Positions 11,074 to 46,152 of a stretch of DNA of 46,248 nucleotides are shown here, piece by piece. Below the pieces are notes generated by a model. That model was not told the origin of the DNA. It saw nothing but the letters and a program-made list of their open reading frames with translations, and made no database searches. Source of the stretch: an uncultured Methanomicrobiales archaeon (GTDB taxonomy: Archaea; Halobacteriota; Methanomicrobia; Methanomicrobiales; Methanospirillaceae); NCBI GenBank assembly GCA_903819595.1, contig CAIJED010000377.1, positions 1 through 46,248 on the forward strand, read 5' to 3'. The position numbers and the translations under genes are program-made. How positions within the stretch are numbered: position 1 is the first letter of the stretch; the number at the start of each line of letters is the position of its first letter.

Positions 11074-13540
11074 ACAGGTAGAATCAGCTCCGCAGTCAGA
11101 CAGCCATCCAGGGCAGGAAGCAGCCCGGCTTTCGGGTACCATGAAAATCGGAATAAACCAGGTGGAATACAGTAATACTCCTGAAGGACCACTGATCCAC
11201 ATATTCGGCCGGGATGAGAGCGGGCAGGCACTTCACCTCCAGATAACCGGATTTAAGCCATATTTTTATGTCCCGGCGGGTGAGGCGGACGGGAAAACGC
11301 TTGCGCAATCGATCACCGCTGACTGGGAGAACACCTATTATTCGATCCACCGTGAACCGTTGAGAAGGCTCTATACCCTCCGTCCGGGAGACGTTCGTGA
11401 ACTACGTGAAAAATACCACCATTGCGAGGCAGATATCCCGTTTGCAACTCGTTTCCTGATTGATACAGGCCTCACCGGAGGTGTGGAGGCCCCCTCCCCG
11501 GTTGCAGACTACCGGGACCTGGAAAAGTCGGAGGTGCATTCCCCTGCTCGGGTCTGCATGGTTGATATCGAGTGTGAGGACGAGCGGGGTTTTCCTGAAC
11601 CGGAACGTGACAGGATCATCTGCCTTACCGCCTGGGACTCGTTCGAGGATCATTACACTACGTTTGTTTCAAGTCCATCAGGGGCAGCGTACGACTTTTC
11701 TTCCCGGGTGGCGGGTGGAGGCCTGAAAAACGGTTGTTTCGCGAATGACCGGCACACGATCTGCACCTATGCCGATGAAAAGGCGATGCTCAGTGGGTTT
11801 ATTGATTACATCAGGAAAATGGACCCTGACATACTCTCGGGATGGAATTTCGTCGATTTCGACATGCCATATATCAACGGGAGAATGGGAGCAATCGGGC
11901 TCAATGCCACATTTTTATCCCGGTTGCCAGGACAGACAGAACGAAATGCTGTCCGGGGGCGTGCGCTTTTTGACCTGCTGTCCGGGTATAAAAAAATGCA
12001 ACTGGCCGAGAGAGAGTCCTACCGGCTTGATGCAATTGCGGAAGCAGAACTGGGTGATGCAAAAGTCCGATATAAAGGCGGGGTGAGTGATCTCTGGAAG
12101 AGCGACCCTGAGCTTCTCGTTGAATATAACTTCAAGGACGTGGAACTATGCGTCCGGATCAACCAGAAGAACCGGATTATTGAGTTTTATCGTGAGATTT
12201 CCCGGTATGTGGGGTGTCCGCTCGACCGGACCCTGAATTCATCGAATGTTATCGACATTTATATCCTCAGGAAGGCACATGGCCGCTATGTCCTTCCGTC
12301 CAAGGGTTTCGCTGCAGCGAACGAATTTGAAGGGGCCACTGTTTTCGACCCAAGCCGCGGTCTGCGTTCGAATGTCGTGGTCCTCGACTTAAAATCGCTC
12401 TATCCGATGGCGATGATGACGATCAATGCCTCCCCTGAAACAAAAGACCCGTCCGGGGAACTCCGTGCGCCAAACGGGATCCGGTTCCGCAAGGAACCGG
12501 ACGGGCTGACACGGAGTATCATCGCGGAACTCCTCGGGGAACGGGATGAGAAAAAACGTCAGCGTAACCTCTATGAATTTGGTTCACCCGAATATGTGCT
12601 CCTCGACCTCCAGCAGAATGTCCTGAAGGTAATTATGAACACCTACTACGGGGTCAGCGGGTACACCAGGTTCCGGCTCTATGACCGGGAGATCGGTTCA
12701 GCGGTCACGTCGGTGGGACGGGCGATTATCGAACATACGAGAACGGTGATTGAAAAATCAGGGTATCGTGTGATTTATGGAGATACAGATTCCTGTATGG
12801 TCCAATTACCTGTCGGGGAGATGGAGGAAACAATCGCGATGGCCCGGGGGATTGAAAAGGAGCTGAACGCAAGTTACGGGGATTTTGCGAAACGGGAACT
12901 GAATGCCGGTACTCACTTCTTTTCGATCAAATTCGAAAAAATCTATGGCAGTTTCTTCCAGGCCGGGAAGAAAAAAAGGTATGCAGGCCACCTTACGTGG
13001 AAGGAAGGGAAAATAGTCGATGAGATCGACATCGTCGGGTTTGAGATCAGGAGGTCCGATTATCCCCAGATTACGAAACGTGTCCAGATGAAGGTGATGG
13101 AGATGATCCTTCATGGTGAGCCCTTCGAGGGGACCCGGAACTATCTTGGTACCATTATCAGGGACTACCGGGGGGGCCGTTATTCTCTTGATGAGATAGG
13201 GATCCCTGGTGGAATTGGCAAGAAACTTGCAGATTATGAAATTGACGATGCGCACATACGTGGGGCAAAATATGCAAATGAATACCTTGGCATGGAGTTT
13301 TCAAAAGGCAGCAAGCCGAAACGGGTCTATATCAAGGGGGTGAAATCGAAATACCCTAAGACTGATGTCCTCTGTTTCGAATACGGTGACCAGGTACCGC
13401 CTGAATTCACAATTGATTACGAGATGATGCTTGACAAAACCATCAAGCAGCCCATCTCGCGAATTATTGAAGCCCTTGGATGGGACTGGGCAAGTATCGA
13501 TCCATCAAGGACAACGCTTGCACAGTTTGGGTTGGGATGA
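11066..13540 (+). CDS. polB: Family B DNA-directed DNA polymerase
   Basis: A replicative or repair polymerase with proofreading. The 3'-5' exonuclease motifs are intact: VDIECEDE (Exo I), SGWNFVDFDMPYI (Exo II) and YNFKDVEL (Exo III). Polymerase motif A is DLKSLYPMAMM, motif B is LKVIMNTYYGVSG, and motif C is YGDTDSC, containing the two catalytic Asp. I choose ATG 11066 (MTEQVESAPQ), which has AGGAG five bases upstream and gives 824 residues. The open frame extends 147 bases further upstream but lies inside mdh. No intein interrupts the motifs, which is worth noting because archaeal polB genes often carry one. Confidence 0.95.
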   Translation: MTEQVESAPQSDSHPGQEAARLSGTMKIGINQVEYSNTPEGPLIHIFGRDESGQALHLQITGFKPYFYVPAGEADGKTLAQSITADWENTYYSIHREPLRRLYTLRPGDVRELREKYHHCEADIPFATRFLIDTGLTGGVEAPSPVADYRDLEKSEVHSPARVCMVDIECEDERGFPEPERDRIICLTAWDSFEDHYTTFVSSPSGAAYDFSSRVAGGGLKNGCFANDRHTICTYADEKAMLSGFIDYIRKMDPDILSGWNFVDFDMPYINGRMGAIGLNATFLSRLPGQTERNAVRGRALFDLLSGYKKMQLAERESYRLDAIAEAELGDAKVRYKGGVSDLWKSDPELLVEYNFKDVELCVRINQKNRIIEFYREISRYVGCPLDRTLNSSNVIDIYILRKAHGRYVLPSKGFAAANEFEGATVFDPSRGLRSNVVVLDLKSLYPMAMMTINASPETKDPSGELRAPNGIRFRKEPDGLTRSIIAELLGERDEKKRQRNLYEFGSPEYVLLDLQQNVLKVIMNTYYGVSGYTRFRLYDREIGSAVTSVGRAIIEHTRTVIEKSGYRVIYGDTDSCMVQLPVGEMEETIAMARGIEKELNASYGDFAKRELNAGTHFFSIKFEKIYGSFFQAGKKKRYAGHLTWKEGKIVDEIDIVGFEIRRSDYPQITKRVQMKVMEMILHGEPFEGTRNYLGTIIRDYRGGRYSLDEIGIPGGIGKKLADYEIDDAHIRGAKYANEYLGMEFSKGSKPKRVYIKGVKSKYPKTDVLCFEYGDQVPPEFTIDYEMMLDKTIKQPISRIIEALGWDWASIDPSRTTLAQFGLG

Positions 13541-14096: not shown

Positions 14097-14379
14097 AACC
14101 TTGCTCCTGAATTTCTCAATACGTTATTCTGGTGTTGGCTTAAAAGAATTAACTACCTTCACCCGGACATGGGCACTCCCGGCGACGAAATAGTTCAGGA
14201 TTGGTCCTCTTCGGTACAGGATACAGCCCTTCGATAACACAATCATCTGGAAGTCAAGCCCTGATGATTTTATGTACGTGTGCGTCAAACCATCTGGTAG
14301 AAGACCATTCGTTATCCAACCCGGGTGTCATTTCCTCGCGTGGATTTTCAAAAACTTCCTGACCAGGTGAGAATAGTTC

Positions 14380-15717
14380 GTGAGTAGTAACCTTCCGGTT
14401 CCAAGGATCCTTATTGCAGGGACACATAGCGGATGTGGCAAAACAACCATTGCACGCGGACTGATGGAGGCCTTCACATCGGAGGGGCTCATCGTACAGC
14501 CTTTCAAAGTGGGACCGGATTTCATTGATCCTACGTATCATACCGCCATATGCGGGAGGGATTCGAGAAACCTTGACCCATTTATGATGGGTGAAAACGG
14601 GGTTAGGGAAACCTTCGTCCGGGCATCAAGGGGTGCGGACATTGCCGTGATTGAAGGCGTCATGGGGATGTTCGACGGCCTTGACGGGACACTGGAAGCC
14701 AGTACGGCACATGTTGCTGATCTTCTGTCCACTCCTGTCATCCTCGTCGTCGATGTAAAAGGGATGTCACGGAGTGCCCATGCGATTGTCAACGGGTTTA
14801 CCGGTTTTCCAGGTGGCGAACGAATAACCGGGGTGATTTTCAACCGCCTTGGCAGTGACCGCCACAGATCGCTGATAGAACGGTCAGCTGAAACGAATAT
14901 AGTAGGATGGATGAAAAGGAGAACCGGGCTTGAGGTGATGAGTCGCCACCTTGGACTCGTCATGGCATCTGAACTTGATCTGGATGGGGCCGCGGGGGAT
15001 GCGGTCAGAGAAGACTGCGATATCGAGGCTATCCTTGATATCGCACGTAAAACCCGCCCGCTTCCGGTCGTGGGACCACTTCCGGAAGTGACCGGAGACC
15101 GGCCAGTTATCGGGGTGGCCCGTGATGAGGCCTTCTGCTTTTATTACAAGGACAACCTTGACCTTCTTGTTGCTTCGGGTGCGGAACTTGTGTTTTTCAG
15201 CCCGATTCATGATCCTCTCCCAGAAACCAATGCCCTCTATCTTGGGGGTGGATATCCCGAACTCCATGCCGGGGCGCTTGAAGCATCAGCCGTCACGAAA
15301 GAAGTCCGAGTGGCGTCGGACCGTGGTATGCCTATCTACGCAGAATGCGGTGGCCTGCTTTATCTTACCCGGGGAATTTCTTCGGACCGTGAGTACCGGA
15401 TGGCAGGCGTCCTTCCGGCATGCGCGGAGATGACACGTTCTGTCCAGGCGCTCGGGTACTCCGATGGCAGTGCCTGCGGAAATAATTCGTTCATCCGCAC
15501 GGGATTGAGCATAAAAGGTCATGAGTTCCATTATTCCCATATTGATTGTACGTCCGACGCACGGTTTATTGTCGATCTCTCGCGGGGCAAAGGCATTTTT
15601 AATGGCAAAGACGGGTTATCAGAGCATGAAACCACCGGAAGTTACACCCACAGTTACTTTACCAGGAAATTTTCGGATTCATTTGTTCACGCAGCCCGGA
15701 TGTTTAAAAACCTGTAA
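14380..15717 (+). CDS. cbiA: Cobyrinate / Ni-sirohydrochlorin a,c-diamide synthase (CbiA/CfbB family)
   Basis: An ATP- and glutamine-dependent amidotransferase that converts the a and c acetate side chains of a tetrapyrrole to amides. The synthetase domain starts with the P-loop AGTHSGCGKTTIARGLM near residue 12, followed by FKVGPDFIDPTYH and VIEGVMGMFDG. The C-terminal type-I glutaminase-like domain has YLGGGYPELHA and the nucleophile region MPIYAECGGLLYL near residue 320, with GHEFHYSH providing the His. At 445 residues it has typical length. Methanogens often have two relatives, one for cobalamin and one (CfbB) for coenzyme F430, and I cannot assign this one. The start is GTG 14380, with no strong ribosome site. 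No other tetrapyrrole gene lies nearby. Confidence 0.88.
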   Translation: MSSNLPVPRILIAGTHSGCGKTTIARGLMEAFTSEGLIVQPFKVGPDFIDPTYHTAICGRDSRNLDPFMMGENGVRETFVRASRGADIAVIEGVMGMFDGLDGTLEASTAHVADLLSTPVILVVDVKGMSRSAHAIVNGFTGFPGGERITGVIFNRLGSDRHRSLIERSAETNIVGWMKRRTGLEVMSRHLGLVMASELDLDGAAGDAVREDCDIEAILDIARKTRPLPVVGPLPEVTGDRPVIGVARDEAFCFYYKDNLDLLVASGAELVFFSPIHDPLPETNALYLGGGYPELHAGALEASAVTKEVRVASDRGMPIYAECGGLLYLTRGISSDREYRMAGVLPACAEMTRSVQALGYSDGSACGNNSFIRTGLSIKGHEFHYSHIDCTSDARFIVDLSRGKGIFNGKDGLSEHETTGSYTHSYFTRKFSDSFVHAARMFKNL

Positions 15718-30409: not shown

Positions 30410-32479
30410 ATGGACATTAACTATGTACAGACAACCTGTCCCTATTGTGGGACGGGATGCTCGTTCAACCTCGTGGTGAAAGACAAGAAGGTAATCGGGG
30501 TAGCACCCTATCACCGATCACCTGTCAACGAAGGTAAGCTCTGCCCCAAAGGCAACTACGCCCACGAGTTCATTAACAGCCCAGACCGACTTACAACTCC
30601 CCTCATCAAGAAAAATGGCAAGTTTGAACCTGCCACTTGGGATGAGGCCTATGATCTGATTGCAAAGAAGTTCAAGTCCTATAAGCCCGACGAGATGGCA
30701 TGTCTCGCATCAGCCCGTGTCTCCAACGAGGAGAACTACGCGATGATGAAGTTCGCCCGTGGGGTACTAAAGACCCGGCATATCGACCACTGCGCACGGC
30801 TCTGCCATGCATCAACGGTCGCCGGTCTTGCCGCATCATTCGGCTCAGGTGCAATGACCAACTCTATTGGTGATATTGCACAGTCAAAATGCGTATTCGT
30901 CCTTGGGAGCAATACCTTCGAACAGCACCCGCTCATCGGACGCAGGATAGTCCAGGCGCATGAAAATGGTGCAAAGCTTATTGTCGCAGACCCCAGGTTT
31001 ACACCGACCGCAAAACAGGCAGACCTGTATATGGCCTTTGTATCCGGATCAGACGTTGCGATTCTGAACGGTATGATGCAGGAGATCATCAGGAATGGCT
31101 GGGAGGACAAGGAGTTCATCAAGACCCGGACCAAGGACTATGAGAAACTGAAAGAAGTTGTCATGAAGGACGCCTACAGTCTCGAAAACGTCTCAAAGAT
31201 CTCAAAAATACCTGTTGCCCAGCTCAAGACTGCCGCAGAATGGTTTGCAAAAGCAGAATCAGCATGTATCTGTTATTCGATGGGTATCACCCAGCACACT
31301 GTTGGTGTTGACAACGTCAAATCAACGGCAAATATCCAGATGCTGACCGGGAACCTCGGTAAAGCCGGGGGCGGTGTGAATGCACTCCGTGGCCAGAATA
31401 ATGTGCAGGGTGCCTGCGACATGGGAGCACTCCCCGTTGTGTTCACCGGGTACCAGAAAGTCATTGACGAAGCGGCACACAAGAAATTCTCTGATGCATG
31501 GGGATTCCCTGACGGTATCTGCGAGGCAAAGAACGGCTATGAAGTCACGACCATGATGGACGTGCTCGCCGACAAGCCCGGAGAACTTAAGGCAATGTAC
31601 ATCATGGGCGAAAACCCGATGATCTCTGACCCGGACCTCCACCACGTTGAGAAGGCATTAAAGACCCTCGATTTCCTCGTCGTTCAGGATATCTTCATGA
31701 CCGAGACCGCGGAACTGGCCGATGTAGTCCTGCCAGCTGCATGCTATGCAGAAAGAGATGGTACTCAGACCAGCACCGAGCGCCGTGTCCAGATGTGGAG
31801 AGTAGCACAGGCACCGCCGGGAGAAGCAAAAGTCGACTGGCAGATCTTCTGTGAACTTGCGGCAAAGATGGGCTATGCAAAGCAGTTCCCGTGGAAGTCA
31901 GCAGAGGATATCTTCACCGAGATTGCAAAGGTCACCCCGTCCTACGGTGGGATGAACTATGCACGCCTGAACAGGCCGGAAGCCCTGCACTGGCCCTGCC
32001 CGACTGTTGAACACCCCGGCTCGCCTATCCTGCATATCGGTAGGTTCTCTCATCCTGATGGAATCGGAGTATTTACACCGATTGAGTGGAAACCACCGGC
32101 AGAAGTACCTGATGCAGAGTACCCCTATGTCCTCACAACCGGACGCTGTCTCTGGCATTGGCATACCGGGACGATGACCCGCCGGTCTGACAGCCTTGAA
32201 CGGGAAGAACCAACCGGCTGGATCGAGATGAACCCGGAAGACGCCAAGGCCCTTGATATCAAGGACCATGAGATGGTACGGGCAATGACACGCCGCGGCC
32301 AGGTGAATGTTCCGGCACGTGTGACAAAAGATATCATGAAGGGCGTCATGTTCATGCCGTTCCACTTCAAGGAATGTGCTGCAAACGTCCTGACCAACAA
32401 CGCCCTTGATCCAGTGGCAAAGATCCCGGAGTTCAAGGCCTGTTCTGTCAAGGTCGAGAAAATAAAGGAGGGGAAGTAG
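30410..32479 (+). CDS. fdhA: Formate dehydrogenase catalytic subunit FdhA
   Basis: A molybdenum- or tungsten-dependent enzyme with bis-MGD cofactor that oxidises formate to CO2, passing electrons to FdhB and F420. The N-terminal [4Fe-4S] site is formed by Cys10, Cys13, Cys17 and Cys45 (CPYCGTGC and KLCPKGNY). The active-site metal ligand is Cys132 followed by His133 in HCARLCHASTV. This is a Cys form, since no TGA codon is read here. Further cofactor segments are VLGSNTFEQHPLIGRR, GMGITQHTVG-like (SMGITQHTVGVDNV), GNLGKAGGGVNALRGQNNVQGACDMG, and near the end TGRCLWHWHTGTMTRRS. At 689 residues it is the usual methanogen size. It is the first gene of fdhAB, one base from fdhB. Confidence 0.97.
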   Translation: MDINYVQTTCPYCGTGCSFNLVVKDKKVIGVAPYHRSPVNEGKLCPKGNYAHEFINSPDRLTTPLIKKNGKFEPATWDEAYDLIAKKFKSYKPDEMACLASARVSNEENYAMMKFARGVLKTRHIDHCARLCHASTVAGLAASFGSGAMTNSIGDIAQSKCVFVLGSNTFEQHPLIGRRIVQAHENGAKLIVADPRFTPTAKQADLYMAFVSGSDVAILNGMMQEIIRNGWEDKEFIKTRTKDYEKLKEVVMKDAYSLENVSKISKIPVAQLKTAAEWFAKAESACICYSMGITQHTVGVDNVKSTANIQMLTGNLGKAGGGVNALRGQNNVQGACDMGALPVVFTGYQKVIDEAAHKKFSDAWGFPDGICEAKNGYEVTTMMDVLADKPGELKAMYIMGENPMISDPDLHHVEKALKTLDFLVVQDIFMTETAELADVVLPAACYAERDGTQTSTERRVQMWRVAQAPPGEAKVDWQIFCELAAKMGYAKQFPWKSAEDIFTEIAKVTPSYGGMNYARLNRPEALHWPCPTVEHPGSPILHIGRFSHPDGIGVFTPIEWKPPAEVPDAEYPYVLTTGRCLWHWHTGTMTRRSDSLEREEPTGWIEMNPEDAKALDIKDHEMVRAMTRRGQVNVPARVTKDIMKGVMFMPFHFKECAANVLTNNALDPVAKIPEFKACSVKVEKIKEGK

Positions 32480-32480
32480 A

Positions 32481-33719
32481 ATGGCAGCGAAAGGTGACAT
32501 GGTCTATGCATGGACCACTGACAAGGAGATTGCAGATAAGGCAGAGCTCGGTGGCGCTGTAACCGGGCTCCTCAAGTTTGCACTTGAAAAGAAAATTGTT
32601 GATGCAGTCCTTGTTGTGAAGAAGGGCCAGGATATTTATGATGCCGTACCTACCCTGGTTACGAACCCTGCGGACCTCAAAAACACCGCGGGGTCTCTCC
32701 ACTGCGGTACGCTGCTCCTCTCGAAACTGGTCAAGAAGTACCTCGAAGGTGCCGAGCATATGAAGATCGGGATCACCGTCAAAGGTTGTGACATGATGGG
32801 GCTGTACGAACTGGCAAAGCGCCAGCAGGTCAACCTCGACAACATTGTCATGATCGGTGTCAACTGCGGTGGCTCTGTCAGCCCGGTCATGGCCAGAAAA
32901 ATGATCAAGGAAAAGTTCGAGATCGACCCGGACAAGGTAACCAAAGAAGAGATCGACAAGGGACAGTTCATTGTCGAGTATGAGGGAGGCCACAAGGGTA
33001 TCTCCATGGACGAGCTCGAGGAGCAGGGTTATGGCCGGCGAACAAACTGCCGCCGCTGCAAGTTGAAAGTCCCGCGCGGTGCTGACCTTGCCTGCGGGAA
33101 CTGGGGAGTAATCGGTGACAAGGCAGGAAAGGCCACCTTTGTTGAAGTATGCAGCCAGAAGGGTGCAGACCTGTTGTCACAAGCCGAGAAAGCAGGGGTC
33201 CTCAAGACCGAAAAGGCCAATCCGAAGGGCATTGAGATCCGCGGAAAGGTCGAAGGTGCCATGCTGAAACTTGGTGACAAGTGGCGTGCAAAAGACTTTT
33301 CCAACCTCGGAGATGGAAGAAAACGTCTTGAGACAATTGTCAAACAGACCTCAAAATGTATCAAGTGCTACTCCTGCATTGAAGCATGTCCAATCTGCTA
33401 CTGTGTTGAGTGCAGTACCCGCAAGCCCTACCTTGTCACACCCGGGCAGGTTCCACCGAACTTTATGTTCCACCTGATCAGGTTCTCGCATATCTCGGAC
33501 AGTTGTATCAACTGCGGCCAGTGCCAGGAACTCTGCCCCATGGACATTCCGAACGCACTCTTCATGCACGCACAGCAGGTTGAGATGGAGAAGATGTTCG
33601 GGCATACACCAGGTGTCAGCATGGAATTACCTGTTCTTGGTTTCGCAGAAGAGAAGACCGAACGGGAACGGCTTTCTGCAACAGGAAGCGACCAGATATT
33701 CGATATCTTCAAGGCCTGA
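32481..33719 (+). CDS. fdhB: Formate dehydrogenase F420-reducing subunit FdhB
   Basis: An FrhB-family flavoprotein that takes electrons from FdhA through Fe-S clusters and reduces coenzyme F420 at its FAD. The 412-residue protein begins with the FrhB N-terminal domain (AGSLHCGTLLLSKLVKKYLE). The middle domain has VKGCDMMGLYELAKR and IGVNCGGSVSPVMARKM, with NCRRCKLKVPRGADLACGNWG binding a further cluster. Two ferredoxin-like sites follow: CIKCYSCIEACPICYCVEC and CINCGQCQELCPMDIP. A strong ribosome site, GGAGGGG, overlaps the end of fdhA. Confidence 0.96.
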   Translation: MAAKGDMVYAWTTDKEIADKAELGGAVTGLLKFALEKKIVDAVLVVKKGQDIYDAVPTLVTNPADLKNTAGSLHCGTLLLSKLVKKYLEGAEHMKIGITVKGCDMMGLYELAKRQQVNLDNIVMIGVNCGGSVSPVMARKMIKEKFEIDPDKVTKEEIDKGQFIVEYEGGHKGISMDELEEQGYGRRTNCRRCKLKVPRGADLACGNWGVIGDKAGKATFVEVCSQKGADLLSQAEKAGVLKTEKANPKGIEIRGKVEGAMLKLGDKWRAKDFSNLGDGRKRLETIVKQTSKCIKCYSCIEACPICYCVECSTRKPYLVTPGQVPPNFMFHLIRFSHISDSCINCGQCQELCPMDIPNALFMHAQQVEMEKMFGHTPGVSMELPVLGFAEEKTERERLSATGSDQIFDIFKA

Positions 33720-34549: not shown

Positions 34550-34658
34550 TCCTGCCGACAGCACGCGAGAGCGAATAAGAGAATGTATATGTTGCCTGAT
34601 TGCCAATCTAATGTCAAAGAGCTTCATAAAGGGGATTCAAGGGAGAGATGCATGTTCC

Positions 34659-35879
34659 ATGGAACTGAAATCATGTAAAAAATTATATAATTCAGAGACA
34701 CAACGGACAATTCCCCCAGAGGAAACACTTCTAAAGGTAGAAGCGCTCCTCCCGGTAGCAGGTATCACAAGAGTCGCTGATATCACAAGTCTTGACCGCA
34801 TCGGGATCCCCGTTTTTTCAAGCATCCGCCCGATGGCTAAGGACGGGGCGATATCAGTCTATAATGGGAAAGGTGCGACACCAGTTGAGGCGAAGGTGTC
34901 GGCCATGATGGAAGGTATCGAACGTTGTTCCGCAGAACCATCCATTCGTGAGACGGTGAATGCCGCATACGGGGCCCTTCCAATGGGAATGCGTGCAGTT
35001 GACCCGAAGGATCTGATCCTGCCTGAAGGTGTGGATGCATCGGCAATGATCCCATGGGTGGAAGGATATGATATCGCGAGTAACCGGGAGACCTGGGTCC
35101 CGGTACATGCAGTATTCCATCCGCTCCCCCGGTTTACTCTTCCCCTTTTCCGTACCAATACGAATGGCCTGGCATCAGGAAATACCCGCGAAGAGGCAAT
35201 ATTCCATGCATTGATGGAATTGATCGAGCGGGATGCCTGGTCTCTTGCAGAGATCACAAGAAGGACTGGAAAACGGGTTGTGAATGTTCGTTCCGGGCTG
35301 GAACGCGAATTACTTGATAAATTTACCAATGCCGGCGTGGAAGTCATCATCAAGGATATTACCAGCGATATCGGGATCCCGACGATCGCCGCGGTATCGG
35401 ATGATGTCCGGTTGAAAGACCCGACACTCCTGACTATCGGGATGGGGACTCATACCAATGCTAAAATTGCCCTCCTCCGGGCGTTGACTGAAACAGCCCA
35501 GAGCAGGTTGACCCAGATCCACGGTGCAAGGGAAGATACTGAAGTCGCAGATTTCAGGAGGAAAATAGGGTACGAAAGGACGAGAAGACTGAACCGGTAC
35601 TGGTTCGAATCTGACAGTGAAGCAGACTTCTCTTCTATCCCTTCAAGTGATACCGATGATTTCCTCACTGATATCCGGAATGTAATCGATGCCCTTGGGA
35701 ATGCAGGACTCAATAATGTGATCGTAGTAGACCTCACCCGTCCTGATATCGGTGTGCCGGTGGTGCGGGTCATTGTCCCGGGACTTGAAGTATTTGCAAT
35801 GGATGGGGAACGTTCCGGGAGGCGATGTAATGAGGCGCGAACTCGTCGTGTTCCTCGGGCCGAGTCTTCCCCTGCGTGA
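34659..35879 (+). CDS. ycaO: YcaO-type thioamidation enzyme (McrA-glycine thioamidation, probable)
   Basis: YcaO enzymes use ATP to activate a peptide backbone amide. With TfuA as sulfur-delivery partner they make thioglycine in the McrA subunit of methyl-coenzyme M reductase. The protein has the ATP/Mg segments EGIERCSAEPSIRETV, GLASGNTREEAIFHALMELIERDAW and TIGMGTHTNAKIALLRALTETAQSR, which carry the Glu and Arg residues of the family. I choose ATG 34659 (MELKSCKKLY, 406 residues) because GGGAGAG stands 11 bases upstream and homologues start near there. ATG 34611 would add 16 residues and could be leaderless from a TATATG box at about 34580. It overlaps tfuA by 50 bases. Confidence 0.9.
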   Translation: MELKSCKKLYNSETQRTIPPEETLLKVEALLPVAGITRVADITSLDRIGIPVFSSIRPMAKDGAISVYNGKGATPVEAKVSAMMEGIERCSAEPSIRETVNAAYGALPMGMRAVDPKDLILPEGVDASAMIPWVEGYDIASNRETWVPVHAVFHPLPRFTLPLFRTNTNGLASGNTREEAIFHALMELIERDAWSLAEITRRTGKRVVNVRSGLERELLDKFTNAGVEVIIKDITSDIGIPTIAAVSDDVRLKDPTLLTIGMGTHTNAKIALLRALTETAQSRLTQIHGAREDTEVADFRRKIGYERTRRLNRYWFESDSEADFSSIPSSDTDDFLTDIRNVIDALGNAGLNNVIVVDLTRPDIGVPVVRVIVPGLEVFAMDGERSGRRCNEARTRRVPRAESSPA

Positions 35880-36489
35880 TGCGGAACAGATCCTCCCTGC
35901 CACCTATCTTCCACCTGCCAGGCGTGGGGATATTCCCCTTGCAGTCCGACAGGGTGCCAGGGTCATCTGCCTCATTGACGGCGTATTTTTTCAGGACTGT
36001 TCGGTAGGGCACCGGGAGATACTTGCCGCAATTGAAAACAAGGTACGGATGATCGGGTCCTCGAGTATGGGAGCACTCCGTGCGGCAGAGCTCGATACCC
36101 TTGGTATGGAAGGCGTTGGGGAAGTATACCACCTGTACAAAAATGGTGATGTCGAATCTGATGATGAAGTGGCGTTGATCTTCGATCCTGAATCCGGCAC
36201 CGCCCTTTCAGTCCCGCTCGTCAATATCAGGTATATCCTGAAACTAGCAGCAGAACAGGGCATTATCACCGGTGAACAGAAGGAACACCTGTTCAGGACC
36301 GCACAACTATTATATTTCCCGGAACGTACCTGGGACCGGATCCGGGAACTGGCGAGTGAAAAAATTCCTGTCCGGACGCTTGAAAAATTCATGCAGTACG
36401 CAGAGAACGGACCCGACCTGAAGCGTGAAGATGCAATCCGGGCATTGAACTATACGCGGGTTATTGCAGAAGAGCTGGGCATTCTTTGA
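35830..36489 (+). CDS. tfuA: TfuA-related protein, partner of YcaO
   Basis: TfuA proteins help YcaO form thioamides, probably by handling the sulfur donor. The 219-residue protein begins MRRELVVFLGPSLPLRDAE and has the conserved RGDIPLAVRQGARVICLIDG, VFFQDCSVGHREILAAI and IGSSSMGALRAAEL segments. The gene lies in the +1 frame relative to the end of ycaO and overlaps it by 50 bases, so translation is presumably coupled. The open frame extends 26 codons further upstream. ATG 35830 is chosen because homologues begin at about RRELVVFLGPSL. The pairing with ycaO supports the McrA thioglycine role in a methanogen. Confidence 0.9.
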   Translation: MRRELVVFLGPSLPLRDAEQILPATYLPPARRGDIPLAVRQGARVICLIDGVFFQDCSVGHREILAAIENKVRMIGSSSMGALRAAELDTLGMEGVGEVYHLYKNGDVESDDEVALIFDPESGTALSVPLVNIRYILKLAAEQGIITGEQKEHLFRTAQLLYFPERTWDRIRELASEKIPVRTLEKFMQYAENGPDLKREDAIRALNYTRVIAEELGIL

Positions 36490-37609: not shown

Positions 37610-37827
37610 GAATCCGGCCCTCTTATCCCCTTTGTTGAAAGGGAGTCCAGGTTAAACTCCATCCCAGACGTGCAGAAAATGCAGACCGCCCGTTGGCATT
37701 TTCTTATTCATTTGTATGTTCGGGAAAAAAGTCCTGTCGGTTACATAGAGGGTACAACGGTCGTGCTCTTTGTGTATACTCCCTGTCCGAAACGATATGT
37801 TGAGGTGGGAACGAGATAGACTTAAGT

Positions 37828-37838
37828 ACCATATATGG
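37828..37838 (+). promoter_or_regulatory. TATA-like box before the ubiquitin-like/TtuA operon
   Basis: The sequence ACCATATATGG is partly symmetrical and lies about 36 bases before the ATG at 37869. It would give a leader of about 10 bases that includes the GGTG possible ribosome site. Confidence 0.4.
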
Positions 37839-37868
37839 ACGGATCATCCAATAGGGTGTGAACCACTG

Positions 37869-38063
37869 ATGCGACTGCAATTACCTAATGGTACTACGCG
37901 TGAAGTCAACGGCGATCCAAGAACTGTGGCTGCATTGCTTACCGGATGTGACATTAACCCCCTGGAAGTGATTGTCACGAAAAACGGCAGGCTGATCCCT
38001 GAAGATGCGACCGTATCGGGAAATGATGAGATCCGGGTATTTCTCGTTGCGCACGGGGGGTGA
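37869..38063 (+). CDS. Ubiquitin-like sulfur-carrier protein (ThiS/MoaD/TtuB family)
   Basis: The 64-residue beta-grasp protein begins MRLQLPNGTTREVNGDPRTV and ends in the Gly-Gly tail AHGG, which is adenylated and thiocarboxylated by an E1-like enzyme. Its stop overlaps the GTG start of the TtuA-like tRNA thiolase by four bases (GTGA). In other archaea and bacteria such a pair (TtuB/SAMP2 with TtuA/NcsA) makes 2-thiouridine in tRNA. No E1 gene is adjacent; the one at 43110 probably serves. The open frame continues 33 codons upstream without looking coding. Confidence 0.87.
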   Translation: MRLQLPNGTTREVNGDPRTVAALLTGCDINPLEVIVTKNGRLIPEDATVSGNDEIRVFLVAHGG

Positions 38064-39007
38064 ACCCGGTTAGTGCAGGTGCAGGGGAGAGAGAAACTAT
38101 TCCCTACTGCGATAATTGCGATGATCCCGCGGTATACTTCGACCCCCGCCTGCAGCGCCACCTGTGTGAGGTGCACCTCAGCCAGGACGTCGAACGCCGG
38201 GTGATCGACCGCCTGGCCAGACACGGGATGATCCATGACGGAGATCGGATTGCGATTGGTCTTTCCGGGGGAAAAGACAGTTCCGTCCTCCTTTCCATCC
38301 TGTCCCGTGTCATCCGGGAACGTTGGGATGCAGAACTTATCGCCATCACCGTAGACGAAGGGATTGCGGGGTACCGCGAGGAAACGATACAATCTGCGGT
38401 GTCACTGACGAAACGACTGGGAATATCCCACCATATCGTCTCCTTCCAGTCACTTTTTGGGACAACCCTGGATTTTCTTCTTACTGCCCATCCGCTCAGG
38501 GCATGTACCGCTTGTGGGATCCTTCGTAAAAAAGCCCTTTCTGACGCAGCAAGAGATATTTCGGCAGACAGTATCGCAACCGGCCATAACCTTTCTGACG
38601 CAGCACAGTCAGTCCTGATGAATTACCTCAGGGGAGATTTTGAGCGCCTCCTGCGGGACAGCAGCAGGCGGGAAGACCGGGGTTTTATCCGGAGGATCAA
38701 GCCTCTCCTTGATGTGCATGAAAAAGAGATCACGCTCTATAGCATGGTCAATGGAATAACCGGCATGCTACCTGAATGTCCGTATGCTACAACCGCATTC
38801 AGGGCTGAAGTAAGGACCCTGCAGGCAGGGATCGAGTACCATTACCCTGGTGCATCGCTCCGTATTATCGAAGGCCAGGAGTCACTCAGCAAACAGGCAA
38901 AGAAAACAGTCCGTCCTGGTACTGTCGGTTACTGTGCCTCCTGTGGGGATCCATGTAGCGGCCATGTCTGCCAGGCATGCGGGTTACTACAAAACCTCAA
39001 CAAATAA
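38060..39007 (+). CDS. ttuA: tRNA 2-thiolation protein, TtuA/NcsA-like
   Basis: An ATP-pyrophosphatase that activates a tRNA uridine and transfers sulfur from a ubiquitin-like carrier. The N-terminal zinc finger is YCDNC...CEVH (residues 16-40). The PP-loop SGGKDSSVLLSIL is near 70. The cluster Cys pair is CTACGILRKKAL near 150, with a third conserved Cys in LPECPYATTAF near 235. A C-terminal zinc finger, YCASCGDPC...CQACG, closes the protein. The layout of two zinc fingers around a PP-loop with three Cys that may bind [4Fe-4S] is that of TtuA. It overlaps the carrier gene by four bases and starts with GTG. Confidence 0.92.
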   Translation: MNPVSAGAGERETIPYCDNCDDPAVYFDPRLQRHLCEVHLSQDVERRVIDRLARHGMIHDGDRIAIGLSGGKDSSVLLSILSRVIRERWDAELIAITVDEGIAGYREETIQSAVSLTKRLGISHHIVSFQSLFGTTLDFLLTAHPLRACTACGILRKKALSDAARDISADSIATGHNLSDAAQSVLMNYLRGDFERLLRDSSRREDRGFIRRIKPLLDVHEKEITLYSMVNGITGMLPECPYATTAFRAEVRTLQAGIEYHYPGASLRIIEGQESLSKQAKKTVRPGTVGYCASCGDPCSGHVCQACGLLQNLNK

Positions 39008-39174: not shown

Positions 39175-39945
39175 TCATGTGTCCGGCTGGACCGCGGACC
39201 CACGGACCCGTTCCGGGTGGGTGTAGATATTCATCTGGTCGCTTCTGGCAAATCCAATGATCGTAAGGCCTGTCTTTCCAGCTATTTCCACGGCAAGGCT
39301 CGTCGTCGCACTCCGGGATACGATGACCGGTATTCCCGCAATGAGGCATTTTCTGATCATTTCTGATGACACTCTTCCTGAACTGACGGCAAATGTATTC
39401 GAGAATGAAATATTGTTCAGCAGTCCGTAACCGATCACACGGTCAAGAGCGTTGTGACGGCCGATATCCTCTGCAATGCAGACCACTCCGCCAGGTGAAA
39501 AAAGTCCCACGATGTGTACCCCGCCGGTCTTTGCATGAAGGTCCGACTGGAGTGTCTGTTTCATACCGGTCCTGATATCTGCCACGTCTACGACGAGGTC
39601 TGATGTTATTTCCGGTAGCTTTGCCACGTCGAGGAAGGAGGAAGAACCCCCGCATCCGGAGAGAACCGTTTTCTTGGAGATGAGAATTTTGAAGGGGTTT
39701 TTTGTCAGGACACTGACCCGGTCAGGTTCTACCTGGATTGATTCGATCTCATCAGGTCCATGGATGATACGCTCGGTATAAAGGATCCCGATAACCAATT
39801 CCCTGACCATCACCGGGCTTGTCATCACCGTGAGTGCATGCCGGCCATTGACGCTAATGGTAAGCGGGACTTCCAGGACCACTTCATGCTCAGATTCCGT
39901 AAATATGCCCGATTTTTCCCTGGTGCAACGAACGACCCTGTACAT
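39175..39945 (-). CDS. fdhD: Formate dehydrogenase sulfurtransferase FdhD
   Basis: FdhD moves sulfur from a cysteine desulfurase to the molybdenum/tungsten-bisMGD of formate dehydrogenase, which FdhA needs to be active. The 256-residue protein has VLSGCGGSSSFLDVAK near residue 92, where bacterial enzymes have a CxxC pair, but only one Cys remains here. It also has HIVGLFSPGGVVCIAEDIGRHNALDRVIGYGL near 140-170, FAVSSGRVSSEMIRK, and VSRSATTSLAVEIA. The gene's ATG abuts the stop codon of the upstream desulfurase with no bases between, which points to a dedicated sulfur-delivery pair. Confidence 0.92.
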   Translation of the reverse strand: MYRVVRCTREKSGIFTESEHEVVLEVPLTISVNGRHALTVMTSPVMVRELVIGILYTERIIHGPDEIESIQVEPDRVSVLTKNPFKILISKKTVLSGCGGSSSFLDVAKLPEITSDLVVDVADIRTGMKQTLQSDLHAKTGGVHIVGLFSPGGVVCIAEDIGRHNALDRVIGYGLLNNISFSNTFAVSSGRVSSEMIRKCLIAGIPVIVSRSATTSLAVEIAGKTGLTIIGFARSDQMNIYTHPERVRGSAVQPDT

Positions 39946-41431: not shown

Positions 41432-42610
41432 ATGGAAGAACAGCAACTGGTATACATGGACCACGCGGCTACGACCGCTGTGCACCCCGAAGTAGTAGAG
41501 GCAATGATTCCCTACCTTCATGGTCATTACGGAAACCCGTCTTCAATCTATTCCATTGCGCAGGAGGCTAAAGAGGCAGTTGGATCTGCGCGGGTCTCTC
41601 TTGCCACTGCACTCGGGGCTGATGTGGATGAAATCTATTTCACATCCGGGGGGACTGAGTCCGACAACTGGGCAATCAAGGGGGTCACGTATGCCAACAG
41701 GAAGCGGGGGGATCATATCATCACCTCGAAAATCGAGCACCATGCCATCCTCCACACCTGCCAGTACCTTGAAAAACAGGGGTTCAAAATTACCTATCTC
41801 CCTGTTGACCAGTATGGGCTGGTTGACCCTGGTGACCTGGAACGTTCAATAACCGATAAGACGATTCTGGTCTCCGTGATGTATGCCAATAACGAGATTG
41901 GGACGATTGAGCCGGTGCAGGAACTGGCTTCAATTACCCATGAACACGGGGTGTATTTCCATACCGACGCAGTCCAGGCAGTCGGCCATGTCCCGGTGTC
42001 AGTCAGGAGTACGGGTATTGACCTCCTCTCATTGTCCGGCCATAAATTCAACGGGCCAAAAGGTACCGGAGCGCTTTTTATCCGGAAAGGGGTCAGGATT
42101 GATAACATACTCCATGGTGGCGCCCAGGAACGGAACCGGAGGGCAGGAACGGAAAACCTTGCAGGAATTGTGGGCACCGGGAAGGCGATTGAACTTGCCA
42201 CAACCGGGATCGAGGAGAAAGGGGTACGGATACGGACGATGCGGGACCGGTTGTTAAGGGGTATCCAGGACTCAATTCAGAATACACGGTTAAATGGGCA
42301 CCCCTTAAAACGGCTCCCTGGTAACCTGAACGTCAGCTTTGATTATATCGAGGGTGAATCCATGCTCCTGCTGCTGGATAGTTTCGGTATCTGTGCCTCA
42401 ACGGGAAGCGCCTGCACGTCGGGTTCTCTCGAACCCTCGCACGTGCTCCTTGCAACTGGTCTGCCCGCGGAGACTGCGCATGGCTCGTTACGGCTGACCG
42501 TTGATACGGATAACACCAATGAAGAGGTTGATTATGTTCTGTCGACCCTTCCCAGGGTGGTCAGTCGTCTCCGTGAAATGTCTCCACTTGGAAAACAAGT
42601 AACCTCATAG
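41432..42610 (+). CDS. iscS: IscS/NifS (group I) cysteine desulfurase
   Basis: The 392-residue PLP enzyme has YMDHAATTAVHPEVVEAM, TSGGTESDNWAIKG, KIEHHAILHTC, FHTDAVQAVGHVP, the PLP lysine in LSGHKFNGPKGTGALFIRKG, and the persulfide Cys loop ICASTGSACTSGSLEPSHVL. It supplies sulfur to the scaffold IscU, whose gene starts 11 bases later. GGTGG stands before the ATG. The difference in catalytic-Cys loop (SACTSG here, EHCC in the divergent gene) shows the two desulfurases belong to different groups and are not a recent duplication. Confidence 0.95.
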   Translation: MEEQQLVYMDHAATTAVHPEVVEAMIPYLHGHYGNPSSIYSIAQEAKEAVGSARVSLATALGADVDEIYFTSGGTESDNWAIKGVTYANRKRGDHIITSKIEHHAILHTCQYLEKQGFKITYLPVDQYGLVDPGDLERSITDKTILVSVMYANNEIGTIEPVQELASITHEHGVYFHTDAVQAVGHVPVSVRSTGIDLLSLSGHKFNGPKGTGALFIRKGVRIDNILHGGAQERNRRAGTENLAGIVGTGKAIELATTGIEEKGVRIRTMRDRLLRGIQDSIQNTRLNGHPLKRLPGNLNVSFDYIEGESMLLLLDSFGICASTGSACTSGSLEPSHVLLATGLPAETAHGSLRLTVDTDNTNEEVDYVLSTLPRVVSRLREMSPLGKQVTS

Positions 42611-42621
42611 AAAAGGCTGTG

Positions 42622-43068
42622 ATGTATAGCAAAACGGTAATGGATCATTTTATGAATCCCCGGAATGTCGGTGAAATAAAAAATCCTGGTGGTGTCGGGG
42701 AAGTAGGGAATCCGGTTTGTGGGGATATCATGAAGATCTTCTTAAAAATCGGGGATAACCGGATCACCGATGCAAAATTCAAGACTTTCGGCTGCGGTGC
42801 TGCGATTGCACCGGGCAGTATGGCCACTGAACTGATCAAGGGAAAGTCCATGGAAGAAGCGTGGGAGGTGACGAACAAGGCCGTGGCCGAAGCTCTCAAA
42901 GGCCGTCCCCCAATCAGGATGCATTGTTCAGTGCTTGCCGAAGAAGGGATCCACAAGGTGATCAACGCGTACCGGGTCAGCCATAACCTCGGTCCCTGGG
43001 AAGAAAAGGCTCATTCTCACCATGAGGAAAAGGACAATGGCGGGTGCAAAACCTGTTACTCCGGGTGA
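42622..43068 (+). CDS. iscU: Fe-S cluster scaffold IscU/NifU-like
   Basis: A scaffold on which [2Fe-2S] and [4Fe-4S] clusters are built using IscS sulfur. The three ligand Cys are present in NPVCGD (near residue 32), FGCGAAIAPGS (near 58) and MHCSVLAEEG (near 102), with the Asp of CGD that aids cluster transfer. The protein starts MYSKTVMDHFMNPRNVGEI. Its C-terminal tail carries a His-rich HSHHEE and a CxxC (GGCKTCYSG), absent from the classical IscU core. I use ATG 42622; a GTG directly before it is also possible. It is part of an iscS-iscU-E1-carrier operon. Confidence 0.95.
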   Translation: MYSKTVMDHFMNPRNVGEIKNPGGVGEVGNPVCGDIMKIFLKIGDNRITDAKFKTFGCGAAIAPGSMATELIKGKSMEEAWEVTNKAVAEALKGRPPIRMHCSVLAEEGIHKVINAYRVSHNLGPWEEKAHSHHEEKDNGGCKTCYSG

Positions 43069-43109: not shown

Positions 43110-43907
43110 ATGAGGAAATCCATTCAACACGGAGCCAAGATACCACCGATGTTAACCAGGAGCGAACAAGACCGGTACCATCGCCAGATATTACTTATCG
43201 GTGAGGAGGGACAGGAGAAACTGAAATCTGCACGGGTGGTCATCGCCGGTGCCGGGGGGCTCGGGTGTCCGGTGGCCACCTATCTCGCTGTTGCCGGTGT
43301 AGGCCATATACGGATCATTGACCATGACACGGTCGATCGTTCGAATCTGAACCGTCAGATCCTTTTCTGGGACAAGGATATCGGGTTGGCAAAAACCTGG
43401 TCCGCAGGTGAAAAACTTAAATCGATCAATCCCGATATCGAAATCGATGCGGTCCAGGCGACCATCGATGATAAAACTGCACCCGGACTTGTCAGAGATG
43501 TGGATGCAATCGTTGATGCGATGGACAATTACCCTGCCCGGTACCTTCTGAATCATCTTGCCTGTACATTCGGTATACCTTTGTTCCATGGGGCGATAAG
43601 GGGGTTCGACGGACAGGTGACTTCAATTATACCGGGAAAGACCGCCTGCCTGGCCTGTATATTCCCGGAAGCCCCCCCAATAGAAATATCCCCTGTCATC
43701 GGGGTCACACCAGGTCTCATTGGTATGATACAGGCAAATGAAGTGATCAAATACCTGCTCGGTACGGGTGAACTGCTCACAAACAGGCTTTTAATTTGGG
43801 ATGGGCTGCGTTCATCTATTGAGACGATCCAGGTTGAACGAGATCCGTACTGCAGAGAATGCAGCCATCTATACAATGACGGGGTTATGAGGGAGAAATT
43901 GAAATGA
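43110..43907 (+). CDS. E1-like adenylyltransferase (ThiF/MoeB/UbaA family)
   Basis: This enzyme adenylates the C-terminal glycine of ubiquitin-like sulfur carriers. The core is MLTRSEQDRYHRQILLIG, the nucleotide loop VVIAGAGGLGCPVATYLAVAG, DHDTVDRSNLNRQILF and DAMDNYPARYLLN. A zinc site is made of CLAC in PGKTACLACIF and CREC near the end. By eye, the position of the MoeB/UbaA Cys that can receive the carrier (before the xxxVxxPxxG helix) is Ile here (PIEISPVIGVTPGLIG). It overlaps the following carrier gene by four bases (ATGA). The start is ATG 43110; ATG 43149 would remove 13 residues and fits the core better, but no ribosome site favours it. Confidence 0.88.
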   Translation: MRKSIQHGAKIPPMLTRSEQDRYHRQILLIGEEGQEKLKSARVVIAGAGGLGCPVATYLAVAGVGHIRIIDHDTVDRSNLNRQILFWDKDIGLAKTWSAGEKLKSINPDIEIDAVQATIDDKTAPGLVRDVDAIVDAMDNYPARYLLNHLACTFGIPLFHGAIRGFDGQVTSIIPGKTACLACIFPEAPPIEISPVIGVTPGLIGMIQANEVIKYLLGTGELLTNRLLIWDGLRSSIETIQVERDPYCRECSHLYNDGVMREKLK

Positions 43908-44182
43908 ACGTCCGTGTTAAGGCATTTGCAAGGTTTCGAGAGATAATAGGGAGTGAAAACACCCTTCAACTTAATGAAGGCACCCCGGTAATCGATGCGC
44001 TGAAAACCCTTTCAGCGGGTTCATTGGATTTCAGGGATGCCTGTTTTGACAAGGAGGGAAATGTTGCGTCCCATGTGGTGCTGATGATCAACGGGAAACG
44101 GATAAGCAGCAAGGACCGGGAGAAGGTTGTGCTCCATGATGGCGACGAGCTTGCCGTCTTCCCGCCTGTCGCGGGTGGGTAG
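43904..44182 (+). CDS. MoaD/SAMP-like ubiquitin-type sulfur carrier
   Basis: The 92-residue beta-grasp protein begins MNVRVKAFARFREIIGSEN and ends DGDELAVFPPVAGG, with the diglycine tail needed for adenylation. The FPPVAGG end is the form found in MoaD and SAMP1. It overlaps the E1 gene by four bases, so the enzyme and its substrate are made together. It is directly followed by remains of moaE. MoaD and MoaE together form molybdopterin synthase, so this carrier once, and perhaps still, served molybdopterin synthesis. Confidence 0.9.
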   Translation: MNVRVKAFARFREIIGSENTLQLNEGTPVIDALKTLSAGSLDFRDACFDKEGNVASHVVLMINGKRISSKDREKVVLHDGDELAVFPPVAGG

Positions 44183-44192
44183 TTGAACAACG

Positions 44193-44540
44193 GTTGGAGA
44201 TTTCCTGGTCAGGATACAGCAGGATGATTTGGTATCAGGACACCGGGAAATAAGACAAAATCAGGAGGAACAGGTGCTATTTTCACATTTACCAGTATCG
44301 TCCATGATGATGGGATAGAATCCATGGAGATCGAGGTATACCGTGACGTAGCAGAATGGGGAATCAGCCTGTTTTCATGGATGAGGCGATGGAAATTTCC
44401 GCTTACACCGTGTTGATGGTATCCGCCAGACAGGCCTGCTCCGGGTGGGGGCCATACTGTATTGATGGTTGTCTGTGTCGGACAACGTAAAGAAGCGTTT
44501 CCCGGTCGCGAGTTTATTGTTATTGCCCCAATTGCCACCT
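44193..44540 (+). pseudogene. moaE: Degraded moaE (molybdopterin synthase large subunit)
   Basis: No single frame is open, but the three forward frames give MoaE segments in the right order. GDFLVRIQQDDLVSG (from about 44196) matches the family's start. Then GGTGAIFTFTSIVHDDGIES (from 44264), continuing MEIEVYRDVAE, matches the segment around 'GAIVTFxGxVRxxDGxxAMEIExYxxMA'. MDEAMEI (44377, another frame) and IRQTGLLRVGA (44421, third frame) resemble the 'HRxGLLxVG' region. VLMVVCVGQRKEAFPGREFI (44459) matches 'VxVVVxxxHRKEAFxAxxFI'. A TGA at about 44415 stops the middle frame. At least three shifts are needed to join the pieces. It follows the MoaD-like gene directly. It is either a true decayed gene or a cluster of sequencing errors in this stretch. 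Confidence 0.72.
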
Positions 44541-44856: not shown

Positions 44857-46152
44857 TTATGGTAATGAATTCTTCTTACGGTAGATGAATGCGTAATACA
44901 GTACCCCGATGACCCCTGCAATGATAATTGTCACGAGGATTGGATTGGAGACAACGAGCCCGATTCCCGAACGGTTAATTACATTGATCTTCACCTTCAT
45001 CGTATCAGAAATATGCGTGTTATCCATTGCATCCCGGTAGCGTATCTCTGAGTCGAGCCCATATTCTTTTGCTGTTGCCGCCTTGTCAACACTCAGCTGA
45101 AACCGGGCAGTGGCACGGTCACCGGGTTTCAGGTCACCCAAAAATGCAATATCATCCGCACTCGTGAATGGGTCGAGCGTGCTGATCCTTGCCTGTGCAC
45201 TATATATCGTCGCTGCACCCGTATTCTCATATTCTACATTGAATACGCCACCAGTTCCCGGATAGACTGTAATTGGATCTGATACGATGGCCAGGTCCAC
45301 CTTTCCACCTACCGGGACACCGATGGTCACCGGGTCTGATGTCACCGTGTCGCCATCCCGGTTCTCATAGACGACAATCATATTTACAGGATAGGTTTTT
45401 TCACCGGCATCTTTTGTGACCGTTACCTTGTAATGGGCAGTTACCGTGCTGTTCGGGGAAAAATCACCGATGAAGACGCTGCTGTCAACCGGGATTACGG
45501 GGCTTGAATTGTCTCTGATGATCTTAATCACCGCATTCTTCCCGCTCTCATAGCCCTTGTTTTTAATGATAAGATTCAGGTACCCGTCATTTCCGGCATT
45601 CAGGTGGTCCGGTTCAACATTCAACACTTCTAACGTGACCAGTGGTTTGATTTTTACGGGCAACTGGAATATCTCCGATGTCTGCCGGTAGTGATAGATG
45701 ATGCTGTCACTTCCAACCTGTTCCGCATTACTAAGATACGTGTAATTCAGTTCCAATGGGAGCATATATTCACCGGGTGGTGCGTCATTGCTAATCCGGG
45801 CGATAAATGGAACAGGTATTGACGCCCCGCCAACGATATCTCCCACCATCTGTGGGTCAGATTTAATCACCAGCGGTGCCGTGCCGCTTCTGAGACTGAC
45901 GGTCGCAAGCTTGGCGGTATTCGGTTGGTCGGCAGGACTCACAAGCGTTGACTGGATAATTTTTATATCGTTCAACCCTTTATTCTGGATGATAACCGTG
46001 ATTGTTGCGTCTTTTCCCTGGCTGAACTCATTGATCCCGGATATTGTTGCCGAGAGATCTGGTGAGCCGGACAAATATTTTGTCTCAGCCAATACCGGGC
46101 TCGTGAAAAAGGCCAGCAGAACAATGAATATTAAAATATACTTAGTTTTCAT
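44857..46152 (-). CDS. COG1361-type S-layer / surface protein
   Basis: The 431-residue protein has a signal sequence (residues 1-22, KTKYILIFIVLLAFFTSPVLA), about four Ig-like or CARDB-type strand-rich modules, and a C-terminal membrane helix (about 403-422, VTIIIAGVIGVLYYAFIY) followed by the basic end RKKNSLP. The modules contain DATITVIIQNKGLNDIKI, NDGYLNLIIKNKGYESGKNA and GGVFNVEYENTGAATIYSAQ. The N-K-G / N-T-G turn in each is typical of COG1361 proteins of the methanogen envelope. It should be anchored with most of the chain outside. In some methanogens COG1361 proteins neighbour ABC exporters; no such neighbour is visible here. Confidence 0.85.
   Translation of the reverse strand: MKTKYILIFIVLLAFFTSPVLAETKYLSGSPDLSATISGINEFSQGKDATITVIIQNKGLNDIKIIQSTLVSPADQPNTAKLATVSLRSGTAPLVIKSDPQMVGDIVGGASIPVPFIARISNDAPPGEYMLPLELNYTYLSNAEQVGSDSIIYHYRQTSEIFQLPVKIKPLVTLEVLNVEPDHLNAGNDGYLNLIIKNKGYESGKNAVIKIIRDNSSPVIPVDSSVFIGDFSPNSTVTAHYKVTVTKDAGEKTYPVNMIVVYENRDGDTVTSDPVTIGVPVGGKVDLAIVSDPITVYPGTGGVFNVEYENTGAATIYSAQARISTLDPFTSADDIAFLGDLKPGDRATARFQLSVDKAATAKEYGLDSEIRYRDAMDNTHISDTMKVKINVINRSGIGLVVSNPILVTIIIAGVIGVLYYAFIYRKKNSLP

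Follow-up and report, generated by a model that had tools for sequence, protein, structure and literature searches.

Xenologous gene displacement, in which an acquired homologue replaces a native gene and the native copy decays, is a known process. In methanogens, the YcaO/TfuA pair has been linked to thioamidation of McrA, and in Haloferax one E1, UbaA, serves both types of sulfur carrier. Archaeal ubiquitin-like proteins are versatile (PMC2948915, PMC4443979), and in Haloferax volcanii the function of MoaE needs K240, the equivalent of Escherichia coli K119 (PMC4443979). For Mycobacterium tuberculosis, several moaD/moaE sets (moaD1/D2, moaE1/E2, moaX; PMC4326299) and a Moco pathway described as horizontally acquired (PMC5720804) have been reported. 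Among the titles returned by literature searches for moaE pseudogenes, for horizontal transfer of moaE and for iscS/moaE in archaea, none concerned moaE displacement in methanogens.

Results

A moaE remnant behind an intact moaD

The stretch of DNA analysed here (the window; 46,248 nucleotides) is contig C377 of the draft genome of an uncultured Methanomicrobiales archaeon (G000; 3.15 Mb, 401 contigs, 96.8% complete, 1.6% contamination), in which genome-wide checks were made by protein-family and DNA searches. Its nearest relatives, uncultured Methanoregulaceae of the same genus, are G001 (CAIKOD010000009, Alinen sediment bin-0030), G002 (JALOPT010000017, Prado136) and G003 (JAPKXR010000232, a Lake Pavin MAG). 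Towards the end of the window, csdB on the reverse strand is followed on the forward strand by iscS, encoding a cysteine desulfurase (41432–42610; PF00266, 285 bits), iscU, encoding a NifU_N scaffold (42619–43068; PF01592, 150.6 bits), a moeB/ubaA-type gene for an E1 activating enzyme (43110–43907; PF00899, 252 bits), moaD (43904–44182; PF02597, 48.4 bits) and a moaE-like stretch. A reverse-strand gene for a CARDB/NEW3-domain surface protein (44857–46152) marks the end of the syntenic block in each of the four species. The iscS and iscU copies are native; the former is of the genus type, grouping with its congeners with support of 100/99.

The original prediction placed a broken moaE at 44193–44540, directly behind an intact moaD. 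The sulfur carrier gene is indeed whole, combining its beta-grasp match with a C-terminal GG (the protein ends in PPVAGG), and the sequence behind it is genuine moaE, with a recognisable extent narrower than proposed (44205–44521, forward strand). In the frameshift-aware DNA-to-protein alignment that had been suggested as a check, the remnant matched MoaE (PF02391) along the domain with a score of 225 over 44195–44521, 59 of 110 positions being identical to the G001 MoaE; the nearest-relative MoaE proteins scored 225 and 214, compared with an average of 27.5 and a highest score of 39 for 60 base shuffles, and 24 for the reverse strand. A tblastn search of the whole genome with the intact MoaE described below also matched 44255–44521 (E 1.7e-8), with one internal TGA.

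As predicted, the MoaE-like segments lie in the correct order, in three forward frames and across a stop. There is no single open reading frame, only five segments (44205–44228, 44249–44368, 44374–44391, 44394–44450 and 44453–44521) in frames 1-0-2-1-0, separated by four frame changes (near 44228–44249, 44368–44374, 44391–44394 and 44450–44453); an in-frame TGA separates the second and last segments, which share frame 0. The ATG of the congeners is replaced by CTG at 44205. Similarity ends at 44521, short of the congeners' RLKQTVPIWKKE stretch, which, judged by a seven-residue spacing, holds the pair of lysines that correspond to E. coli K119 and K126. The C-terminal catalytic-lysine region is thus unrecognisable, and the remnant has no recognisable equivalent of E. 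coli K119 or H. volcanii K240.

A second, intact moaE in trans

One explanation offered by the original prediction was that another moaE exists, and the genome-wide search that it called for shows that this is so. Exactly one MoaE match over the cut-off was found, on contig C327 (14140–14463, within 14107–14562), behind a second iscS–iscU pair. The match scores 109.8 bits and spans positions 1–113 of the 114 in profile PF02391, and the catalytic lysines are kept as the lysine pair of IKKGVPIWKKE. The last 244 bases of C327 overlap contig C161 (98% identity), which continues with cysE and cysK, so that the block reads iscS-iscU-moaE//pdxS-cysE-cysK, with pdxS on the opposite strand. The moeB–moaD pair is absent from this block as assembled.

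The block is Methanoregula-like. In trees, its iscS, iscU and moaE fall with Methanoregula-type sequences (genus g5/g12), whereas the iscS and iscU of the window fall with those of the congeners. The C327 MoaE is up to 83% identical to Methanoregula proteins and ∼56% identical to those of the congeners, and the PdxS encoded beside it is 88–89% identical to Methanoregula copies, compared with 79% to the native second PdxS of this genome, which is itself 96–97% identical to its congeners. Methanoregula sp. PtaB.Bin085 (G076) has the same order, iscS-iscU-moaE-pdxS-cysE-cysK, with no moeB–moaD in between (L103, G076:C39); its moeB–moaD pair is detached, ∼3 kb beyond cysK (L206, 2075–3102), and a full operon is also present on its contig C51. 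By analogy, a moeB–moaD pair could lie in a gap beyond C161. Compared with the sampled Methanoregula, the C327 genes approach saturation in dS, and the donor therefore lies outside that sample. Older vertical retention of the C327 moaE, rather than acquisition, is still conceivable.

We consider it unlikely that the block is a contaminant derived from a co-occurring Methanoregula, or that C327 is a chimeric contig, with the organism's own moaE unassembled or lacking. Such an origin would account for the Methanoregula-like iscS, iscU, moaE and pdxS, and in this draft genome the junction on C327 is known from the assembly alone. Against it, about 5 kb of the same contig (7320–12423) is colinear with G001 contig C181 at 74–80% DNA identity, the level expected within the genus, and this left part of C327 is therefore genus-native. 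The break also falls in the promoter region that iscS shares with a divergent regulator, the acquired block beginning ∼40 bases before iscS, after base 12423. Furthermore, MoaC and four PF00384 matches are present in the genome, and some MoaE is therefore expected in this organism. In G001 (L067, G001:C181, 9237–11274) the regulator beside larE faces a SepCysS-like gene, so named from its sequence; in G000 and in Methanoregula it faces iscS.

The moaE slot in related genomes

Two of the three congeners (G001 and G002) have an intact moaE in the orthologous slot of the same block. In the third, G003 (L038, G003:C191, 6925–8659), moeB and moaD are intact, iscS is a remnant in two frames, and moaE carries two indels and a nonsense codon near its end; no iscU was found anywhere in the draft. 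The indels do not coincide with the lesions in the window, and the two inactivations therefore look independent. The three genes damaged in G003 are exactly those duplicated by the C327 block of G000.

No second moaE was found in the G003 draft, a point against the displacement account. A cassette-type contig was also sought there, and none of the tested C327 flank was found. Because iscU and pdxS were not found in the draft either, the simplest reading is that a contig is missing from it. Native moaE appears to have been lost more than once in this genus (in G000 and, through different lesions, in G003) while moeB–moaD persisted; it is nevertheless very unlikely that G003 makes molybdopterin through an unrecognised MoaE substitute or uses MoeB–MoaD in some other sulfur-transfer role.

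Decay of moaE after duplication is recurrent, as illustrated in another genus of the family (L208, G071:C104, 4892–5458), where an iscS remnant and a two-frame moaE remnant lie together and an intact moeB-linked moaE is found on contig C103. An apparent further broken moaE, in G085, was rejected because the gap consists of assembly N.

Carriers, their E1 and selection

The window moeB-type gene is the sole ThiF-domain (E1) gene found genome-wide. ThiS-type carriers gave two matches, MoaD and a SAMP2/Urm1-like protein (37755–38063, forward; PF21965, 33.1 bits); no other MoaD-type gene was found in the family search of the genome. The SAMP2-like gene overlaps by 4 bases a gene for an NcsA/TtuA-type PP-loop ATPase with a zinc ribbon, a candidate for tRNA thiolation (38060–39007, forward; PF01171, 53.3 bits; PF16503, 25.5 bits, below cut-off), and the two are likely a tRNA thiolation pair. 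The SAMP2-like carrier would then serve tRNA thiolation, and the single E1 would serve both carriers. YcaO and TfuA genes, adjacent and overlapping, are also found in the window (34611–36489).

That the window encodes a molybdopterin-dependent formate dehydrogenase was correctly recognised (30410–33719, forward): an FdhA-type molybdopterin oxidoreductase (30410–32479; PF00384, PF01568, PF04879), which needs molybdopterin, is followed by an FdhB/FrhB-type F420 subunit (32481–33719; PF04432, PF04422). The FdhD/NarQ gene, for formate dehydrogenase sulfur insertion, is at 39175–39945 on the reverse strand (PF02634, 235.9 bits).

Both moeB and moaD are under purifying selection. Against the three congeners, dN/dS was 0.14–0.17 for moeB and 0.10–0.15 for moaD, the same as among the congeners save for one moaD pair with low dS; csdB against G002 and iscS against G003 were left out as wrong-paralogue pairs. 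Relative-rate counts showed no difference for the window iscS, moeB or moaD. At the protein level the window iscU evolves faster than that of G001, with 12 unique changes to one (with three of the five outgroups p is 0.003, before any correction, and the signal is weaker when G002 is the comparison), which may reflect relaxed constraint, the C327 block carrying a second iscU.

It had also been proposed that the carrier has switched to tRNA or protein thiolation. We find no need for this, because a separate SAMP2-like carrier abuts the NcsA-type gene and an intact MoaE is available to MoaD in trans. The death of the adjacent moaE and the versatility of archaeal ubiquitin-like proteins might suggest that MoaD no longer serves molybdopterin synthesis; nevertheless, tRNA thiolation is better assigned to the SAMP2-like protein as a candidate, no second MoaD-type gene was found, and MoaD is as constrained here as in congeners in which the neighbouring moaE is intact. 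A switch in the function of MoaD is accordingly most improbable.

The remnant itself has diverged in the manner of an old pseudogene. Over 96 in-frame codons compared with G001, pN was 0.228 and pS 0.473, whereas for the intact moaE of G001 and G002 the values were 0.089 and 0.477 (Fisher p 1.7e-5 for the pN excess, on rounded counts). Because nonsynonymous divergence is raised ∼3-fold while silent divergence is unchanged, we conclude that the remnant is the product of old decay and reject sequencing error, the last of the proposed explanations: although this is a draft genome of 401 contigs, it is scarcely credible that moaE is truly intact at this site, since the four frame changes, the loss of both the ATG and the C-terminal end, and the raised divergence all fall within 320 bases, between moeB and moaD on one side and the CARDB gene on the other, none of which shows a lesion, in keeping with the earlier argument that intact neighbours speak against generally poor sequence.

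Discussion

We believe that the window most probably holds the native-moaE pseudogene of a sulfur-relay operon, displaced by the Methanoregula-like copy on C327, with native MoaD and acquired MoaE forming the working synthase. The remnant would be the last gene of a native iscS-iscU-moeB-moaD-moaE operon. An ancestor would have gained the Methanoregula-like iscS-iscU-moaE//pdxS-cysE-cysK block beside the native larE–regulator pair, making the native moaE redundant and leading to its decay; this order of events is what the arrangement of the two loci suggests.

MoeB and MoaD would still be supplied only by the window operon. Because the C327 block lacks moeB–moaD, and purifying selection acts on the sole E1 gene and the sole MoaD-type gene found, those of the window, the working molybdopterin synthase is likely, on this genomic evidence, to pair native MoaD with acquired MoaE. 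MoeB would adenylate MoaD, with a cysteine desulfurase providing the sulfur, and thiocarboxylated MoaD would pass this to the acquired MoaE, yielding molybdopterin for the formate and formylmethanofuran dehydrogenases.

A puzzling broken gene in the essential molybdenum/tungsten cofactor pathway is thereby explained without a new mechanism. Since another contig of the genome holds a working moaE that seems to come from a related genus, the case is one of ordinary gene replacement, with no new pathway involved. It also lets nature test whether subunits can be exchanged between lineages, because native MoaD presumably functions here with an acquired MoaE sharing only ∼56% identity with the congeners' own MoaE. 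It is also a warning for annotation, in that a missing neighbour is a poor ground for inferring a changed function of MoaD.

The window order iscS-iscU-moeB-moaD is that of the Methanoregulaceae larE-reg//iscS-iscU-moeB-moaD-moaE operon, which is intact in full in G001, G002 and Methanoregula. The locus differs from that operon in the decay of its moaE and in the second copy being without moeB–moaD, as in Methanoregula sp. PtaB.Bin085. It resembles M. tuberculosis in having more than one moaE locus per genome; unlike the coexisting sets described there, one of the two moaE genes is dead and moaD is single. The likeness is closest to xenologous gene displacement: trees and synteny place the intact, phylogenetically foreign moaE with another genus and the decayed native orthologue in its ancestral slot, and the acquired gene would have replaced the native one in function. 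In contrast to the usual xenologous displacement, only one subunit of a two-subunit enzyme has been exchanged, and, because the acquired block as assembled lacks moeB–moaD, the resulting synthase would be a mosaic of native and foreign parts.
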